Made by a program: the position numbers and the translations under genes. DNA of 34,689 bases from positions 1-34,689 of the IMG/VR virus record IMGVR_UViG_3300048121_001972. One strand, 5' to 3'. This document shows, one piece after another, positions 2,306 to 21,087 of the stretch. The stretch is from a virus. The notes under the pieces were generated by a model. It did no database searches, was not told the DNA's origin, and saw nothing but the letters and a program-made list of their open reading frames with translations. The stretch's first letter is position 1. Every line of letters starts with the position of its first letter.

Positions 2306-3186
2306 TATCTTAACTCCATTAATCCTTTAAGATCATCAACAAGTTCTGAAGATACAATAGAAAGAGATTTACCAATTTTTTCATTTAAAATTGTATGATT
2401 AAAATCGTTCCAAACTTTCTTAACATCATTAGTATCTTTACAAGTTTTTAAATACTCACGCATTTTTGTTAAATTTGTATAATGCTCTTCAAGAAGTTTT
2501 TTTACAGATAAATTTAAGTGTTCCTTTGTCTTCACATATTCTTTTAAGAAATTAAAATCCTTTTTTGTTTTAACCCTAAAATCTAACTTATGGCTACTTA
2601 TATCTGGCACTTCAAAATAAAAAGGATTAGGAATTTTTTTATCATCATAATAATACGAAAATACAACAGGGCAATTATTTCTAATCCATGTAGATACTTT
2701 ATCACCCATATTACTATCGTTTCTTGGTTTTTGAAAACTATTAGGAATATTAGACGAAAAGACATTTAGACAAAAAGGATTTAAATCTTGTTGTAGTAAT
2801 TCATCAAAATGCAATGCTACTGCCTGATCAGTTGATAAATTAAAATCCAAACATTTATCTGAATAATCAAAATGATAAGGCTTCATCACAGTTTTATTTC
2901 CAAGTGGATAGCTTTCCTTTTGTTCAACATCAAAAGTTGTTTTTGCATAAAGATGACTTACTTTCGAAGTTGTTTTAAATTTTCTAAATGTTTCCAAATC
3001 AGAATGAGAGATTTGACCATACACCATATTGGTTGCTATTTGATATGCTTTAGTTCTATATGCTAAAAAATTACTAACTGCTACATCAAGTTTTTTTCTC
3101 ATAGGTGTTTTTGTTTGTAAGACAATCTTAGACCATTCAGCTAAGATTTTATCTCTATGCTTGTTATTTATTTTAATTAAAGTCAT
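2305..3186 (-). CDS. Hypothetical protein, 293 aa, first gene of leftmost operon
   Basis: The start has an ideal Shine-Dalgarno (AAGGAG, six bases before ATG 3186) and lies about 25 bases downstream of a strong sigma70-like promoter, so this should be a well-expressed gene. The N-terminal 60 residues are basic and helical. The middle has aromatic patches (MKPYHFDYSDK and VVFSYYYDDKKIPNPFYFEV) that suggest a beta-rich core, and the C-terminal third is helical. I do not recognise a catalytic motif. Phage proteins with a similar basic helical N-terminus occur among nucleotide-modification-associated families, but the resemblance is too weak to name one. It is coupled to the 84-aa gene by TAATG. 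Confidence 0.75.
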   Translation of the reverse strand: MTLIKINNKHRDKILAEWSKIVLQTKTPMRKKLDVAVSNFLAYRTKAYQIATNMVYGQISHSDLETFRKFKTTSKVSHLYAKTTFDVEQKESYPLGNKTVMKPYHFDYSDKCLDFNLSTDQAVALHFDELLQQDLNPFCLNVFSSNIPNSFQKPRNDSNMGDKVSTWIRNNCPVVFSYYYDDKKIPNPFYFEVPDISSHKLDFRVKTKKDFNFLKEYVKTKEHLNLSVKKLLEEHYTNLTKMREYLKTCKDTNDVKKVWNDFNHTILNEKIGKSLSIVSSELVDDLKGLMELR

Positions 3187-3216
3187 TTGATACTCCTTAT
3201 CTTAATTAGTTGGGAT

Positions 3217-3246
3217 ATTATAACCAAAAAAATATCTAAAAGTCAA
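3217..3246 (-). promoter_or_regulatory. Strong sigma70-like promoter of leftmost operon
   Basis: On the minus strand TTGACT (3241-3246) is separated by 18 bp from a perfect TATAAT (3217-3222). The start of transcription would be near 3210, giving a leader of about 25 bases that contains the AAGGAG of the 293-aa gene. It lies directly downstream of the terminator of the noncoding RNA unit. The -10 and following bases match those before the gp88-like gene over 13 bp. Confidence 0.8.
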
Positions 3247-3261
3247 TCTTGTAAATAAAGT

Positions 3262-3344
3262 TTTTAAAAAAATGAGGGAACGATTTACTATTAGGGGAAT
3301 AAAAGTAAGGATAGGAATAAAAGTTATCAAACGCTCCCTCATTT
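3262..3344 (-). terminator. Long-loop intrinsic terminator of the RNA unit
   Basis: Arms 3332-3344 and 3270-3282 pair over 13 bp on the minus-strand transcript with one G-U, enclosing a 49-base pyrimidine-rich loop, and end in a run of seven T (three inside the stem). The T-run follows the stem in the minus direction, so it would end the unit that starts near 3667. The large loop is unusual for a terminator. Confidence 0.65.
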
Positions 3345-3667
3345 CGTGATCAAGGATTGTACTCTACTGCTCCGTCTACCAGCAGAATTTCGGATAAGCA
3401 TACAACCCTAATGAAGAAAATCAGCTTACATATACCTCTGCCAAAATTCTTCACTTTCAATATGGCTTTGTTTATACCCACAAGGCTTGACTCCTTGGGA
3501 CAGGAATAATTTAAACATTTTTCCCGTACTGAAACATGGTCTGGTGTTTCTTTTCTTGCCTGTACCATATAGAAACTTTTAGAAAGCGTAGGCAGTCCCA
3601 TAGAGCAATCTATTGCCTGATCAATTACTTCAGGCTCAACTACTTTAGTCTGTTTTTCACTACGCAT
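3262..3667 (-). ncRNA. Candidate structured noncoding RNA, about 400 nt
   Basis: This unit has its own promoter (3674-3701) and terminator (3262-3344), and transcription from upstream should stop at 3710-3744. It is clearly less AT-rich (roughly 40% GC by hand count) than its flanks. The minus-strand RNA can form many local stems: 3660-3665/3586-3591 closing a domain, 3630-3635/3615-3620, 3609-3613/3600-3604, 3564-3570/3534-3540, 3521-3526/3501-3506, 3493-3499/3477-3485 (one bulge), 3447-3453/3412-3418, 3401-3408/3354-3361 (one G-U), and inside the last 3381-3385/3367-3371. A 105-aa frame (3350-3667) exists, but its ATG would be almost at the transcription start, with no Shine-Dalgarno, and its last third does not look like a protein. 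A leaderless small protein remains the alternative. I cannot place it in a known RNA class. Confidence 0.6.
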
Positions 3668-3673
3668 GATTAT

Positions 3674-3701
3674 AAGATAGTGAGATATATTAGGATGTCA
3701 A
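3674..3701 (-). promoter_or_regulatory. Promoter of the noncoding RNA unit
   Basis: Consensus TTGACA (3696-3701) is followed after 16 bp by TATCTT (3674-3679), with an overlapping TATAAT (3669-3674) at a too-long 21-bp spacing. Transcription would begin at about 3667, so the RNA would have essentially no leader before the ATG at 3667. Confidence 0.65.
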
Positions 3702-3709
3702 TACCCTAA

Positions 3710-3744
3710 AATAAAAAAACCCCTGAAGTATTTATCAGGGGTTT
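3710..3744 (-). terminator. Strong intrinsic terminator ending the left small-gene operon
   Basis: On the minus strand CCCCTGA pairs with TCAGGGG (3735-3741 with 3720-3726). Three more A-T pairs extend the stem to 10 bp, the loop is 8 bases, and TTTTTTTATTTT follows. It lies just after the 21-aa micro-ORF and before the promoter of the RNA unit, so it separates the two transcription units. Confidence 0.9.
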
Positions 3745-3763
3745 ATGAGTGAAAGATCGTTAT

Positions 3764-3829
3764 TTACTTTCTATTTCCAAAAAACAAAAAGTCAATTAGT
3801 TTTGCAAATTTTTCTATAAGCCAATTCAT
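3764..3829 (-). CDS. Putative 21-aa amphipathic micropeptide
   Basis: The sequence MNWLIEKFAKLIDFLFFGNRK starts at an ATG that shares its A with the stop of the upstream 65-aa gene (TAATG), the same coupling used by several clearly real genes here. It would form an amphipathic, strongly hydrophobic helix with a basic end, as in small membrane-active phage peptides. It is the last frame before the strong terminator at 3710-3744. The short length means chance cannot be excluded. Confidence 0.45.
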   Translation of the reverse strand: MNWLIEKFAKLIDFLFFGNRK

Positions 3830-4026
3830 TATCGTATCTCCTCTACTTCTTCAATTCTAAATTCTTCAATCTTTGATTTGTCAGCTTGTATTGATCTATC
3901 ATTATTTTTATCAAAGTACATAGCTCCTTTATCTTCTATTTTTTTTCTAGCATCATCTTGTGTTTTTGCGTTTAATATAAAGGTTTTAGCATAAGCTTCA
4001 TAAACTCTTACCTTATAAGTCGGCAT
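3829..4026 (-). CDS. Small protein resembling the DpnD/PcfM family, 65 aa
   Basis: AAGGAG lies eight bases before the ATG. The protein begins with a beta strand (PTYKVRVYEAYAKTFILNA), followed by a helix with alternating charge (TQDDARKKIED) and a final acidic strand (EEFRIEEVEEIR). This beta-alpha-beta layout, with 'A.s.deA...ie' in the helix, resembles the short DpnD/PcfM-like proteins found in phages and mobile elements, whose function is not established. The family call is by eye only. It is coupled by TAATG to the micropeptide that follows. Confidence 0.65.
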   Translation of the reverse strand: MPTYKVRVYEAYAKTFILNAKTQDDARKKIEDKGAMYFDKNNDRSIQADKSKIEEFRIEEVEEIR

Positions 4027-16287: not shown

Positions 16288-16494
16288 AACATCCTCCAAT
16301 ACTCCAGCTTGGACACAAGTAAAATTAATTTCTACAGTGTCTAAGTCTTGGAGATCTTTTGTTACTAAACTATAATATTCATTACATTGTTCGTAATTTG
16401 GAAAATCTACTTCGGAAACCATTCTTAAACATTTTTGATCTACTCCTAAACCAATACACACCCAACCTATTAAAAAAAATTTTAAACTAGCCAA
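16282..16494 (-). CDS. Small exported or membrane-anchored Cys protein, 70 aa
   Basis: A hydrophobic N-terminus (ASLKFFLIGWVCIGLG) looks like a signal or anchor, followed by a small domain with Cys 22, 37 and 60 (QKCLRMV, YEQCNEYYSL, NFTCVQ) that could hold a disulfide. I propose a TTG start at 16494, overlapping the stop of the 1159-aa gene (TTGGCTAG), because the hydrophobic segment then lies at the very N-terminus. An ATG at 16551 gives a longer form with an unlikely charged extension. Small phage proteins of this kind with 'CLRxVSE...EQCxEYxSLV' spacing are reminiscent of exported proteins at the ends of marine phage structural operons; role unknown. Confidence 0.55.
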   Translation of the reverse strand: MASLKFFLIGWVCIGLGVDQKCLRMVSEVDFPNYEQCNEYYSLVTKDLQDLDTVEINFTCVQAGVLEDVL

Positions 16495-19400
16495 AGACTG
16501 TATCAGTAGCTCCAAACACTTCCTGACCTCTTGATGATGTTTGACCACCACCTCTTAAAGGAGGTAAAAACGCCATAGAAACTTGATTCAAGCTTGATGC
16601 GGGGCTAATGGTAGGAGAACTTAAAATAGGTTGTACTGGAATATTTGCTTGTGATTGATCTCCAGGTACAGTCCTTGCAATTTCATCTTCTCTTCTTTTT
16701 TTGAAACTATCAGCTTCTTCCATATTAATATCTTGTTCAATTCCGTCAGTCATCATTCCACCAATTTGTCCTAAGAATCCAATCATCTTTTCTATATCTC
16801 TTGATTTAAGATCCTGTCCAACAATCATATTGACTAAGGATTCAGAAAACTCCCTGTCGTATAAAGATTTTGCTATTAATTCATTTCTTTTTCTAATGCT
16901 CAATTGTCTTAACATCCTAGCAAACAATTCACCAGCAACAAATTTAATTCCTGTACGACCAGAAGCCACTGCAAAGAAACGTGAAAGAATTTGTGGTGAT
17001 CCTGTGCCCAATACGCTTTTTACTACATCTCTTAATTGTTCAGGATCGGTTCTTCCTATAGGAAAGGGAACAGCTCCTGCTTTTTCATAAGCACTCGTAA
17101 TTAATTTAAGTCTTTCAAAACCTTGAGGATCATTTACTAAATTAAAAAATGTTTGAAAAGAATCTTTGTTTTTATCTAAGTAATCATTCATCTTGTCATA
17201 CTTTGGATATTTACCTTTTCTGATATCAACCATAATTGGGGCTGACCAATCTTTAAATATTTCTTTTTTAAAAGCTTGAAGTATGATTCCATCAGGATCA
17301 TTTTGTGCTATAGCAGTTACAATTTTTTCCATATCATCAGGATCTGCTAATGCTTTTTTTACCATATCATCAGCATTCTTATAAGTAATTCCTCTGAATA
17401 ATGTTTTGTCTTTAGCTAAATTTTCTAACTCAATAGTACCAGCAACATTTAATCTTGCATTCTGTTCATTAATTTTATTTGCAAGGTTTATACCCACATC
17501 AGTTTTGCTGTTAAGATCAGCTTTGAAATTTGGAATTATTTCATCCATTTTATTTATTATCTCAATGTTATCTGCTTTGAACTTATCAAGCTTTACATTG
17601 TCAATAACTCCTGTTGGCCTAAAAATATTTTTTATCATAGTATCATAAAAGGCGTTTTCTATTCCTTGTATGGCAATAGGATTATCACCAAAGAAATTTT
17701 TAAATTGATCTAAAGTTTCTGGGCTTTCTAAAAAAGCAGCTCCTACACGTTCATTGGGTAATTTGTAATTACCATCTCCTGTTTCTGTTCTTAACTTTAA
17801 AATTACTCCTTGTTCGTAAAGATCTTTATATTCAGTATTGTATTTTGTTAACCAATTATCTACAGGTTCAACTGCTTCTGGAACTGACTTGAGTAATTGA
17901 TCTGTTTTATGTTGTAGTAAAGATAATCTTCTAATTTTTTCTGAGTTTGTGTTTGGATTTCTAAGTGATTTATTTAAAGATTCTCCAATACTTCTTTTTA
18001 AACCAACTATTTCATCAGCACTTAATGTAAAAGTTTCATCAATTGGATTATATTGTGGAGCTAGTCCAAAAGGTGCATCACCTTTTTGTTTATTACGCAG
18101 TAAACGTTGGTTAAGCATATTTATTGCTTCATCTAATTCTATAGTACTAATTTGTCCAGATTCTAATAGGGGACCAAGTTTGGCTAATAGCTCATCAAAA
18201 GGCTTAGTTAAATCTTTTAGAATTGTATATTCCTGAGGCAAGTCTCCTACTGTTTGAAAAGGTTTAACAGCTAATTCACTTCTTACATCATCAACAAAAG
18301 TGTTGACCTCAACTCTTGGATTGAATTCTTTGACAGTTGCTTCTAATTCACCATATAAAGTATCTTGTGTTTGTTTAGCCTTTGTTCCTAATTCTCCACG
18401 TACAAAAATACCTGCATCTTTTAAAACTTCATCAGGAACCCTTGGAAATGTTTTTAATAATTGTTCTTCAGCAGCAGCAATTTTACCTGGTACATCATCT
18501 AAAATAGCTGCATTCAAATTCTTTTGTGGATCAACATAAGTATTAAATTTTTTAACAGGTTCTAATACCTCTTCTACACTACCATCATTAAACTTACGAG
18601 TTATAGGAATAGCATCAGGAAACTCTGCTGCAACTGTTGCATCTAGAATAGCTTTGTTTTGTAAAGCTCTTTCTTGTGCAGCAGTTAATATTTCAGTTCT
18701 AACAGGTAAATCTGCTTCCATTTGAGATTGTGTTTTTATTAATTGTGGATCTTGAGTTCTTTCAGCTAAAGACAAATTAAATTTTAAATCAGCTGCTTCT
18801 CCAGCTTCAGTTTTTTTAGCATTTTCGGAAGCAATAACGGGTGCAACTAAGTCTTCTATATTTTGTGATTCTTTTAAATTAGTTTTTGCAAAGTCATTTT
18901 CAACACTTTGTTGTATTTCACTTTTAGCATCTTCGTATGCTTTAGCCTCAGATTTTTTATCAATAAATTTTCTGAACTTATTAAAAACTGCCCCAAACAC
19001 TCCTTGATCTTTCATATTCATAACCACGTCTAATGTTGCTTTAGGAAAACCGTATAAAGCACCAGGCAAAGCTAATGAACTAGCAAAAGGTAAAACACCT
19101 CTCCATATCGCCTCAGTAGTACTTAATTCTTCTACTTTTTTATCAGATAAATCGGCAGGTAATTCTCCTAATTCCCATCCTGTAGTAGCTAAAACATCAG
19201 TAAGAGCTGCAGTTGCAGGTGATCTTTGATAAAGTGTTAAAATTTCATCAATAACTTTTTTACCTGTATCATAAACATTATTTTTAAAAGTATCAGGTCC
19301 CATTTGTTTCAGAATACTAGCACCAGCAGGTATAGATCCCGCAATTTTTGGGCTGGTTAAAGCAGCACCACCTGCTGCAAACTCAATACCTAGTAAGGTA

Positions 19401-19966
19401 CCAGCAGCTACACGATCTGCAACTCTCTCTCCTAATGTCTTTGGAGTAAATCTTGGATCAATAGCTTTTGTAATTTCAAAACCTTTTTGAATAGAGTCTT
19501 TTATATTTTGTCGATACTCTTCTTCTTCAGATAAATATTCATCAATATCTGAAGCAGTCCAATTTATGTATGGAAGAAAATCAGAACCAGATTGTAACAA
19601 ACCTGCTAACCTTTGATTAAAACCATTTGTAAATGATTTATATAAATTTTCACCATTACTTTGATAAATACCCGCTACTTGTTCTTTCGTTAAACCATAA
19701 TCATTTAAAAGTTCGTCAACTAATTGATTTGTTTGAAATGCATTAAAATCATTCTTGATTGAATATTGACGTAAGTTTTTTAAATCTTCTCTTGCATCAA
19801 TAACTTTTTTTCTTAACTCTTCGTCATCAGGTAAATATATTTTTGTGTTAGATTCTTCTCTTGGAATTTCTATTTCGTTTTGTACAAATTCACTATCTGT
19901 TTTAGAAGTTGCTTGGGCAACTGCTTGCTTAACGACTTCTCTCTCATATTCTGCAGGTAAAGCCAT
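16487..19966 (-). CDS. Large internal virion/DNA-ejection-type protein, 1159 aa
   Basis: The largest gene in the window. The protein is mostly helical, alternating charged coiled-coil regions (for example DDEELRKKVIDAREDLKNLR) with Ala/Gly-rich hydrophobic stretches (LLGIEFAAGGAALT near residue 200 and LPFASSLALPGALYGFP near 300) that could insert in a membrane. The C-terminal 60 residues are Pro/Ser-rich (PVQPILSSPTISPASS). Size, composition and position after the 389-, 296- and 373-aa virion-type proteins fit the large ejection protein of podoviruses (analogous to T7 gp16 or P22 gp16/gp20), which leaves the capsid with the DNA. No lytic transglycosylase or other enzyme motif was found. It starts by TAATG coupling. 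Confidence 0.65.
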   Translation of the reverse strand: MALPAEYEREVVKQAVAQATSKTDSEFVQNEIEIPREESNTKIYLPDDEELRKKVIDAREDLKNLRQYSIKNDFNAFQTNQLVDELLNDYGLTKEQVAGIYQSNGENLYKSFTNGFNQRLAGLLQSGSDFLPYINWTASDIDEYLSEEEEYRQNIKDSIQKGFEITKAIDPRFTPKTLGERVADRVAAGTLLGIEFAAGGAALTSPKIAGSIPAGASILKQMGPDTFKNNVYDTGKKVIDEILTLYQRSPATAALTDVLATTGWELGELPADLSDKKVEELSTTEAIWRGVLPFASSLALPGALYGFPKATLDVVMNMKDQGVFGAVFNKFRKFIDKKSEAKAYEDAKSEIQQSVENDFAKTNLKESQNIEDLVAPVIASENAKKTEAGEAADLKFNLSLAERTQDPQLIKTQSQMEADLPVRTEILTAAQERALQNKAILDATVAAEFPDAIPITRKFNDGSVEEVLEPVKKFNTYVDPQKNLNAAILDDVPGKIAAAEEQLLKTFPRVPDEVLKDAGIFVRGELGTKAKQTQDTLYGELEATVKEFNPRVEVNTFVDDVRSELAVKPFQTVGDLPQEYTILKDLTKPFDELLAKLGPLLESGQISTIELDEAINMLNQRLLRNKQKGDAPFGLAPQYNPIDETFTLSADEIVGLKRSIGESLNKSLRNPNTNSEKIRRLSLLQHKTDQLLKSVPEAVEPVDNWLTKYNTEYKDLYEQGVILKLRTETGDGNYKLPNERVGAAFLESPETLDQFKNFFGDNPIAIQGIENAFYDTMIKNIFRPTGVIDNVKLDKFKADNIEIINKMDEIIPNFKADLNSKTDVGINLANKINEQNARLNVAGTIELENLAKDKTLFRGITYKNADDMVKKALADPDDMEKIVTAIAQNDPDGIILQAFKKEIFKDWSAPIMVDIRKGKYPKYDKMNDYLDKNKDSFQTFFNLVNDPQGFERLKLITSAYEKAGAVPFPIGRTDPEQLRDVVKSVLGTGSPQILSRFFAVASGRTGIKFVAGELFARMLRQLSIRKRNELIAKSLYDREFSESLVNMIVGQDLKSRDIEKMIGFLGQIGGMMTDGIEQDINMEEADSFKKRREDEIARTVPGDQSQANIPVQPILSSPTISPASSLNQVSMAFLPPLRGGGQTSSRGQEVFGATDTVFG

Positions 19967-21087
19967 TATTGTTCTTGCCCTTCTATAACGTAGCTCCCTT
20001 CATCTGCATCTAAATTCATTCCTGAAAAAGCATCATCTCCAGACTTAAATTGTTGATACTCAGAGCTAGCACTAAATGGACTTGGGTTATTAAGATCATA
20101 TTCATTAACTAAATCATTATATTCTGCTCTATTAGAAGCTTTATTTGCAAATTTTCCGTAAGCTATAGTTCTATCTGCATAGAATTTTAAAATATTGACT
20201 AATCTCTGATTAGCTTCTGGATCTGTTGCTAAATTGGGCGTTGATCTAAGTAAATTTGTTAGTTCAAAGTTTGACTTATTACCTGTTAATTTCTCAGCTA
20301 AGTCCAATGCTAAATTTCTATTGATTATATTAAGCATATCAGAATCAGCACCCGATACAGTAAGTCGATTAAACCCTGTATTATTCAAAAATCCATCAAT
20401 ATCAAATCCAAAAGCATCGCCAACCTTGACTAGTCCAGCTAATGATGCAACAACTGGGTTTGTAGTCATATCAGGATCAGATAAAATTTGCATAGTCTCT
20501 TCTAATAACACAGTGGTAGCTTTTGCTTTATTCGCATCCTCTTCCTTTTTATCTCTGAAAGCAATGTAATCCTTTACATCATACTTACCTGTACCTTTTT
20601 GTTGAATTATACCCTCTAAATTTTCTAAATCTTTTAATTCCCAATCTGCTAATTTTTCTCCTGCTTGAATTCTTTGATTGTAAGCATTGATCTTTCCAAT
20701 AAAACCCTCTGTTTCGGTTTTTTTATCATCAGAAACATCAGGAATACTTTCTTTATAAATATCTAAGGAGGTATCTAATATCTTTGCTTGTTTTTCTTGA
20801 TCTGCTTGTGCTCGCAATAATTCATCAGTTTGTCTACCCGCACTAATTCCACCAAATAAATTTTTTAAATCATCTGCAAGAATTGCACTACTACTTGGAA
20901 GCTTTGTACCAGGTCTAGCTGTTCCAGTGAAACTTTCTGGATTTTGTGCTAAAAATTGTCCTGCAATGTCAAGTTTTGTTCTCTCAGGTAAAGTTCCAAT
21001 ACCTGAATAAAGATCACTTACATTAGATACAATATTTTCGAACCCTGGAAAGTTCGCAAACATTTTTCTATTTTCTAATTTTGCCAT
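19966..21087 (-). CDS. Internal virion-type protein, 373 aa
   Basis: A helical, acidic protein with heptad-like segments (DELLRAQADQEKQAKILDTS, then LEETMQILSD) and no membrane span. It has a flexible N-terminus and a Ser/Asp-rich C-terminus (PSPFSASSEYQQ). It is coupled to the 1159-aa gene by TAATG and lies three bases after the 296-aa gene, so these proteins should be made in fixed ratio. This is the setting of podovirus core or ejection proteins. No homologue is named with confidence. Confidence 0.6.
   Translation of the reverse strand: MAKLENRKMFANFPGFENIVSNVSDLYSGIGTLPERTKLDIAGQFLAQNPESFTGTARPGTKLPSSSAILADDLKNLFGGISAGRQTDELLRAQADQEKQAKILDTSLDIYKESIPDVSDDKKTETEGFIGKINAYNQRIQAGEKLADWELKDLENLEGIIQQKGTGKYDVKDYIAFRDKKEEDANKAKATTVLLEETMQILSDPDMTTNPVVASLAGLVKVGDAFGFDIDGFLNNTGFNRLTVSGADSDMLNIINRNLALDLAEKLTGNKSNFELTNLLRSTPNLATDPEANQRLVNILKFYADRTIAYGKFANKASNRAEYNDLVNEYDLNNPSPFSASSEYQQFKSGDDAFSGMNLDADEGSYVIEGQEQ

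Follow-up and report, generated by a model that had tools for sequence, protein, structure and literature searches.

Near one end of the window (the whole stretch of viral DNA that was analysed, 34,689 nt long), positions 3744 to 3217 of the minus strand carry, in this order, a terminator, a promoter-like site, about 400 nt in which no credible gene is seen, a second terminator with a long stem and a promoter-like site of the next operon. The features of this locus are:

3717–3744, minus strand: intrinsic terminator of the upstream operon (10-pair stem, 8-nt loop, T-run)
3674–3701, minus strand: sigma70-like promoter TTGACA-16-TATCTT, from a pattern scan and kept in relatives L004, L005 and L006
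3350–3667, minus strand: 105-aa open frame that is unlikely to represent a gene (no match; length varies or frame absent in relatives)
3586–3665, minus strand: 5′ RNA module M1, with closing stem GCGUAG/CUACGC and inner hairpin GCCUGA/UCAGGC
3460–3570, minus strand: core RNA motif (P1, pseudoknot, P2, P3, P4), 95.4 bits with model R1, which counts the window core among the 14 rows that it was built from
3413–3452, minus strand: 3′ hairpin with loop AGAGGUAUAUGUAA (z −1.89, 9 of 200 shuffles as good)
3352–3409, minus strand: 3′ stem AGGGUUGUA...UACAAUCCUU enclosing a hairpin (z −2.60, 3 of 200 shuffles as good)
3266–3344, minus strand: terminator of the RNA (13-bp stem, 49-nt loop, T-run, that is a U-run in the transcript)
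3217–3246, minus strand: promoter of the next operon, TTGACT-18-TATAAT, from a pattern scan

This arrangement bears out the preliminary description, which had read from the letters alone a strong upstream terminator (placed at 3710–3744), a TTGACA promoter, a second terminator with a 13-bp stem, the promoter of the next operon and a region less AT-rich than its flanks; the GC content is 0.37–0.40 in the RNA body and 0.26–0.27 in the flanking genes. The transcript of the window is predicted to start at about 3667. Counted as bare patterns, the region has five promoter-like sites, compared with 4.9 (sd 1.9) in shuffles, and a single terminator-like site, compared with 0.4; neither count exceeds chance, and the promoter-like sites of the window therefore rest on their order and on the comparison with relatives, in which L003 carries the version TTGACA-16-TATATT and L004 and L006 are identical to the window over 521 nt. 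The terminator at 3266–3344 has a fold z of −5.00, with none of 200 shuffles as good, and escaped a scan with a loop limit of 8 because its loop is 49 nt long. Among relatives, L003 has A-U in place of a G-U pair of this stem, and both L003 and L005 have a loop shortened by 6 nt. The whole 439-nt RNA has a fold z of −2.66 (1 of 100 shuffles as good), a value which alone would prove little. The observation as a whole, that is the layout together with a structured RNA of about 400 nt, is confirmed, and the comparative data are its strong part.

A blastn search of the region against 50,697 phage records returned one hit, 52 nt long, in an unannotated gap of Pelagibacter phage HTVC115P, and the bases common to the window and this phage formed the basis for pattern scans of IMG/VR. 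The first scan gave 58 loci with 53 members, the second, with a loose pattern, at least 11 members among the 89 new matches listed, all of which were scanned with the model, and the last 13 new loci with 11 members. No member was found among 119 new loci of a further loose scan, and none of 116 loci in genome contigs fitted the core pattern, seven of these being scanned with the model as well; the hits of these loose patterns were mostly due to chance. In total, the core occurs in at least 75 IMG/VR contigs besides the window, some of them near-identical, and unannotated in HTVC115P. In that phage (MN698247) the ends of a discrete RNA are predicted near positions 2743 and 2861, and as it has no clear promoter in front, such an RNA would have to arise there by processing. 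A recount gave 77 loci that fit the core pattern, including two judged to be chance matches (L397 and L398); 69 of the 77 records were analysed, of which 68 yielded 54 distinct cores and one (L040) is truncated by the end of its contig. Of 85 chosen sources, 55 were matched by model R1 at an E value of 1.2e-4 or better; the model also matched the remaining 11 members of the first scan. Besides L397 and L398, L014, L015, L018, L039 and L050 were dropped as chance pattern matches, and L082, L085, L090, L108 and L168 because of E values of 0.2–0.74 with the model.

Exactly one R1 match was found in each member record that was searched whole (34 of 34 and 18 of 18, together 52 of 52), a count in which a divergent second copy could be missed because many records are incomplete and the short type of core scores low with R1. 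Three named relatives of the window phage by DNA polymerase (023Pt_psg01, HTVC023P and HTVC027P) had no core match, and a match in phage DSL-LC04 lacked the conserved bases and was dropped as a chance match. In a search for a cellular home, there was no core match in a set of seven genomes nor in a set of 24. A single match among 385 genomes of the class was dropped since it lacked the conserved bases; this set may hold few or no Pelagibacterales because of its stricter filters and an even draw made without names.

The core is about 83–214 nt long across the members and about 110 nt in the window, where its parts lie as follows:

3564–3570, minus strand: 5′ strand of P1, pairing with 3460–3466 (five of seven P1 pairs changed on both sides)
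3561–3563, minus strand: 5′ strand of the pseudoknot, ACA, with a proposed pairing to UGU at 3515–3517 (position supported across the family)
3531–3550, minus strand: P2 hairpin, supported by permutation and a place of insertions in relatives
3500–3527, minus strand: P3 hairpin ACGGGAA/UUCCUGU, supported by covariation and fold (four of five scored pairs never vary)
3515–3517, minus strand: 3′ strand of the pseudoknot within the P3 loop, supported by the permutation test
3477–3499, minus strand: P4 hairpin CCCAAGG...CCUUGUGGG (three of seven pairs changed on both sides)
3460–3466, minus strand: 3′ strand of P1, supported by covariation

Covariation was assessed for helices P1, P3 and P4 in an alignment of 41 members, 40 of them distinct and including the 14 behind R1. 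In these helices 97.3% of the cells are paired, compared to 33–42% when the helices are slid along the alignment. Changes on both sides of a pair were counted in 76 cells (21.5 in shuffles, a value reached by none of 500) and in nine of 19 pairs (5.3 in shuffles, reached by one of 500), none of the 500 shuffles reaching the alignment on the other four measures; these counts lean upward because relatedness is lost in the shuffles and the model guided the alignment. Variation is absent from nine of the 19 pairs and is found mostly in P1 and towards the top of P4. The proposed helices thus show more compensatory change than the controls, and the aligned members also share near-invariant unpaired stretches.

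The bases just after P1 pair with the loop of P3 to form the pseudoknot, and the two strands vary among members: UAAGAC/GUCUUA in L025, UAUUGC/GCAAUA in L405, GCCG/CGGC in L035, UCUG/CAGA in L009, GCAG/CUGC in L086 and UGAC/GUCA in L053. When the partners of 29 distinct pairs were permuted, the observed score of 10.38 compared with 7.54 (sd 0.37) and was reached by none of 5000 permutations. A test limited to a single pair per strand type (13 types) also gave 0 of 5000, and an earlier one with 25 pairs gave 0 of 2000; P2, tested with 34 pairs, likewise gave 0 of 5000. These permutations do not keep the relatedness among the sequences, and P1 was set by hand in L022, L103, L114 and L409, the row of L114 being mis-cut so that it counts against the test. 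In the window type the pseudoknot has only 3 bp (ACA/UGU) and the script preferred another pairing; L113 and L406 carry GCA/UGC, a change on both strands that preserves the pairing. P2 lies in the stretch from P1 to P3, whose length ranges from 16 nt without a P2 in L086, L113, L404 and L406 to 127 nt in L034. The core folds only modestly better than shuffles (z −2.47, −2.50 and −2.84), and the short type of L113 no better (z −0.28).

Covariation of the stems, which had been put forward from the start as a point on which the proposed RNA should stand or fall, came out in its favour, with the nine doubly changed pairs of P1, P3 and P4 and with the permutations of the pseudoknot and P2. The at least nine local stems counted in the preliminary description correspond, by comparison, to the 5′ module, the core, two 3′ stems and the terminator. 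Based on these comparisons, the locus holds a structured RNA with a promoter-like site and predicted terminators around it, and its core represents a new RNA family, consisting of a closing helix P1, an optional P2, a P3 with a loop-to-strand pseudoknot and a P4.

The suggestion of a class of its own, dedicated to the phage, also agrees with the database searches: neither the window nor 19 homologous loci gave a gathering-level match to Rfam 15. Among 12 sub-threshold matches in 3180–3860 (E up to 10, best E 0.15) there was no GOLLD, ROOL or OLE; of two other weak scans, one gave no match up to an E value of 1 and the other a single match with an E value of 0.88. Riboswitch families, the glutamine riboswitch included, had no gathering-level match in the window or the 19 loci (sub-threshold only in 3180–3860), and self-cleaving ribozyme families had no match in the window, the 19 loci or a weak scan of 3180–3860. 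Neither a tRNA nor a tmRNA was found in the window or 33 related loci, which are fragments. GOLLD, ROOL and OLE all have Rfam entries, and many GOLLD members are longer than 800 nt and lie near tRNA islands, according to PMC12286853. The possible membership in GOLLD or ROOL that had been raised earlier is therefore not borne out, and neither is one in OLE: no family model matches, the core spans about 83–214 nt and is not the single large conserved fold of these families, and the tRNA neighbourhood frequent in GOLLD and ROOL was not seen.

Likenesses to described systems do exist. GOLLD, as portrayed in PMC12286853, is also a structured RNA of phages whose function is unknown and in which one part is more conserved than the other, whereas the window core has about 110 nt, no tRNA was found and Rfam gave no match. 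ROOL is, according to the same source, structured, pseudoknotted and phage-borne, but here there is no Rfam match and a tRNA island was not seen. The manA and wcaG RNAs of cyanophages are likewise RNAs of marine phages and, according to PMC2864571, linked to metabolic genes, while the present core precedes varied phage genes and has no Rfam match. The glutamine riboswitch of phages Melnitz and Mosig, as presented in PMC9004378, is a structured RNA in phages of streamlined marine bacteria; in our case no such Rfam match and no tmRNA were found. A literature search returned no description of the core RNA. Fremin et al. are said to have published, in 2023, a large set of candidate phage RNAs, and this set could hold the RNA unnamed; since Rfam contains curated families only, absence from it does not exclude an unnamed earlier prediction. 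The novelty that we claim, as far as searched, concerns fold, family and organisation, function being a matter of proposal rather than demonstration.

The core is surrounded by further RNA modules. M1 is present in four further, dissimilar contigs: it precedes the core in L401, and no core was found in the stretch analysed in L419, L427 and L428. It is absent in L003. In L401 its stem sequences differ (closing stem ACAGGG/CCCUGU, inner hairpin GUUUGAG/CUCAAAC) and the fold is the same, with a z of −3.23 compared to −2.82 in the window; one pair of the closing stem is mismatched in L419 and L427. The invariance of UCUAUGGGACUGCC in M1 is by choice because the search pattern fixed it, and all else in that pattern was free except AAUAGA. 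The 16-mer of the 3′ hairpin occurs in 16 contigs: four belong to the window group, five (L401, L419, L420, L423 and L426) share a module of about 86 nt with a stem GCC/GGC or GUC/GAC (z −2.15 in L401), and in the other seven it stands in unrelated sequence that is probably coding. The 3′ stem at 3352–3409 is known only in near-identical relatives. Short pieces between the core and the next gene, and also inside P2, are common to different phages and differ in order. For example, two pieces shared by L029 and L034 are swapped, and a piece of about 58 nt is, by eye, part of the 5′ core in L051 and the loop of another module in L038. The sequence comparisons thus demonstrate that modules around the core are gained, lost and reshuffled between phages.

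Several other recurrent elements were noticed. A module of the form GGC-loop-GCC lies downstream of the core in L012, L029, L032, L034, L038 and L051, with variants in L401, L419, L423 and L426; its loops (for example UUGGGUAGU, AAGGUAGU and UGGUAGU) can pair with a later ACUACC element, and by eye loop and partner change together. Also downstream of the core, a hairpin module GUGAAAACCUACGCCCUUGGCGGGU-UCAC is found in the two otherwise different arrays of L012 and L044, a module GCGAAAGCAGUCUGCAAAAAAACAGGUGC with differing closing stems in L032 and L059, and, in L053, a ACUAGACGGCA-like word that is repeated at intervals along a stretch lacking any clear gene. Two tandem copies of AUAGGGUGUUAAUCCAAAU with different closing stems stand at about 30.0–30.6 kb of the contig of L034 (G014), at the end of a long array. 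The element CAAACACC...GUUAGUGUUU recurs in L019, L022, L083, L401 and L423; in four of these loci it stands after the core and before the next gene. Module arrays without a core detected by the model are present in the stretches of L419, L420, L423, L426, L427 and L428, and similar small genes follow differing module sets in L401, L419, L426, L427 and L428, again by eye.

The position of the core relative to promoters and genes was compared across the family. Of 52 distinct upstream regions, 31 have a site with at least nine of 12 promoter matches, the end of its −10 box being at most 14 nt away from P1. In 28 of these the gap is 5–8 nt, which suggests that P1 probably starts the transcript. 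Single promoter scores are weak, as shuffles often reach nine of 12; many upstream regions are related, and the argument lies in the constant distance. No such promoter adjoining P1 was found by the script in the other 21, among them the window itself, whose M1 separates the promoter from the core, and L009 and L016, for which an equal-scoring site further off was taken. In L003, without M1, a promoter-like site directly adjoins P1, and in L002, L086 and L126 the core lies close behind another gene. Downstream, as located by a simple script in 56 distinct regions, the first ORF of at least 45 aa led by a Shine-Dalgarno (SD) sequence begins within 40 nt in 24, at 41–150 nt in ten and further away in 21, with none in one; promoter, core and ribosome-binding site follow in succession in L013, L035 and L110. 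The genes behind the core fall into different sequence clusters without a constant gene, and some of them are, from their sequences, putative primase, helicase, polymerase or packaging genes. Behind the core of L061 come a terminator-like stem, CCCACAG...CUGUGGG-UUUUUU, and then ORFs on the opposite strand, the first same-strand SD-led ORF being 934 nt away.

The PHROGs search covered the proteins of the window only. In it, two frames on the minus strand, of 1159 aa (16487–19966) and 373 aa (19966–21087), had no match at E values up to 0.01; they adjoin a gene matching a DNA ejection protein family.

The reading that we tentatively favour, at somewhat less than an even chance, is a non-coding RNA of a new family that would work in trans and not as a cis leader; it is preferred because no constant gene follows the core, the unit of the window is bounded and L061 has the arrangement just described. 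The transcript would start at the first closing helix, each RNA module would fold as a closed domain, and the unit would be ended by a terminator, as in the window, or be cut free from the downstream mRNA. A protein of the phage or its host would recognise the invariant unpaired bases that the pseudoknotted core displays; this protein would most likely belong to the machinery of transcription, RNA decay or translation. Further binding sites would come from the exchangeable modules. The covariation, the permutations of pseudoknot and P2, the single core per record, the terminators on both sides in the window, the promoter-like sites near P1 and the exchange of modules are in line with an RNA of this kind. 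The modest folding excess of the core, nil for the L113 type, the 3-bp pseudoknot of the window type, the 21 upstream regions without an adjoining promoter and the cores close behind a gene speak against it, as do the 24 downstream regions with an SD-led ORF within 40 nt, which resemble a 5′ leader.

A cis-acting 5′ leader, possible and in our view less probable than an RNA acting in trans, would explain the order of promoter, core and ribosome-binding site equally well, and this order counts against the trans-acting RNA as well. The core would then be a 5′ UTR domain of one phage operon that controls translation or mRNA stability, as a riboswitch-like sensor, a protein-bound operator or a protection of the 5′ end; in the window, the terminator would cut it off from the gene, or transcription would read through. 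Both the 31 upstream regions with a promoter-like site close to P1 and the 24 short distances to an ORF would fit such a leader, L013, L035 and L110 being examples of this order. However, the gene behind the core is not constant, a terminator and a new promoter precede the next gene in the window, and L061 has no same-strand gene directly downstream. A general device for 5′ protection is moreover argued against by the single copy per record.

An antiterminator encoded in the transcript, by which a polymerase that has passed the core would read through terminators including that at 3266–3344, appears unlikely to us. Its models are the put RNA of phage HK022 and the EAR element. The put RNA is promoter-proximal, structured and independent of the genes behind it, which the core resembles, but it consists of two simple hairpins whereas the core is a pseudoknotted multi-helix domain. 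The promoter-proximal position in many members (31 of the 52 upstream regions, with 21 to the contrary), the independence of gene identity, the single copy per record and the downstream terminator in the window would all suit such an element. Against it, a first ORF within 40 nt in 24 of 56 cases leaves little room for a terminator before the ORF, and read-through in L061 would enter opposite-strand ORFs; a literature search on the likeness to put and EAR returned nothing.

It is very improbable that the phage transcript is processed by the core as a self-cleaving ribozyme or another catalytic RNA: the compact pseudoknotted fold and the near-invariant unpaired nucleotides would fit, but no ribozyme family of Rfam matches and, with P1 near the predicted 5′ end, hardly anything would be left to remove there. 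PMC10085705 describes how new RNA motifs were sought in the vicinity of hairpin ribozymes. We regard as slightly less probable still an origin of replication or a primer RNA, which is by nature single-copy, as the core is in each record, and which would suit its position next to genes read as replication genes in some contigs. Among five larger records, three show a turn in cumulative GC skew, the nearest about 4 kb from the core, and two run without a turn and say nothing; as the skew may only follow gene strand, the origin was rejected on weak grounds. A packaging RNA was also considered and dropped. In one clade the core directly follows a putative terminase small subunit gene, as read from sequence, and a gene of this sequence cluster lies near 34 of 58 cores. 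In L031, L035 and L103, however, core and gene are on opposite strands, and the 6 kb around each of the remaining cores, many of which are at contig ends, contain no such gene.

Least probable of all, to the point of being nearly dismissed, is a small protein gene corresponding to the 105-aa frame, which begins about the predicted transcript start, as had been noted at the outset, with no ribosome site visible. The frame is open over 105 aa in the window, L004, L005 and L006, and similar frames exist in four further loci (72 aa in L003, 114 aa in L019, 47 aa in L021 and 45 aa in L122). On the other hand, it had no tblastn relative in the phage collection and no PHROGs match, its lengths vary, L003 lacks about the first 97 nt, and no same-strand frame is listed over the window-type cores of L022, L083, L102, L103 and L110. 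The conservation of the frame in homologues, which the preliminary description had named as evidence against an RNA, was thus not found; between the window and L005 its codons show one synonymous and two non-synonymous changes, too few to judge.

Beyond the trans-acting RNA itself, a wider proposal, which we regard as possible and rather doubtful, is that marine phages hold loci of exchangeable, self-folding RNA domains. In such loci, a pseudoknotted core present once per genome near the 5′ end of a transcript would be followed, or interrupted in the P2 loop, by modules which are shuffled, nested and swapped, as an RNA counterpart of hypervariable accessory genes that may serve host takeover or counter-defence. 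Overall, our analysis adds to the phages, including a cultured Pelagibacter phage in which it is unannotated, an RNA family with a well-supported pseudoknot. If the shuffling of modules reflects selection on RNA domains, these phages would carry an RNA-based accessory repertoire which is missed by protein-centred annotation.
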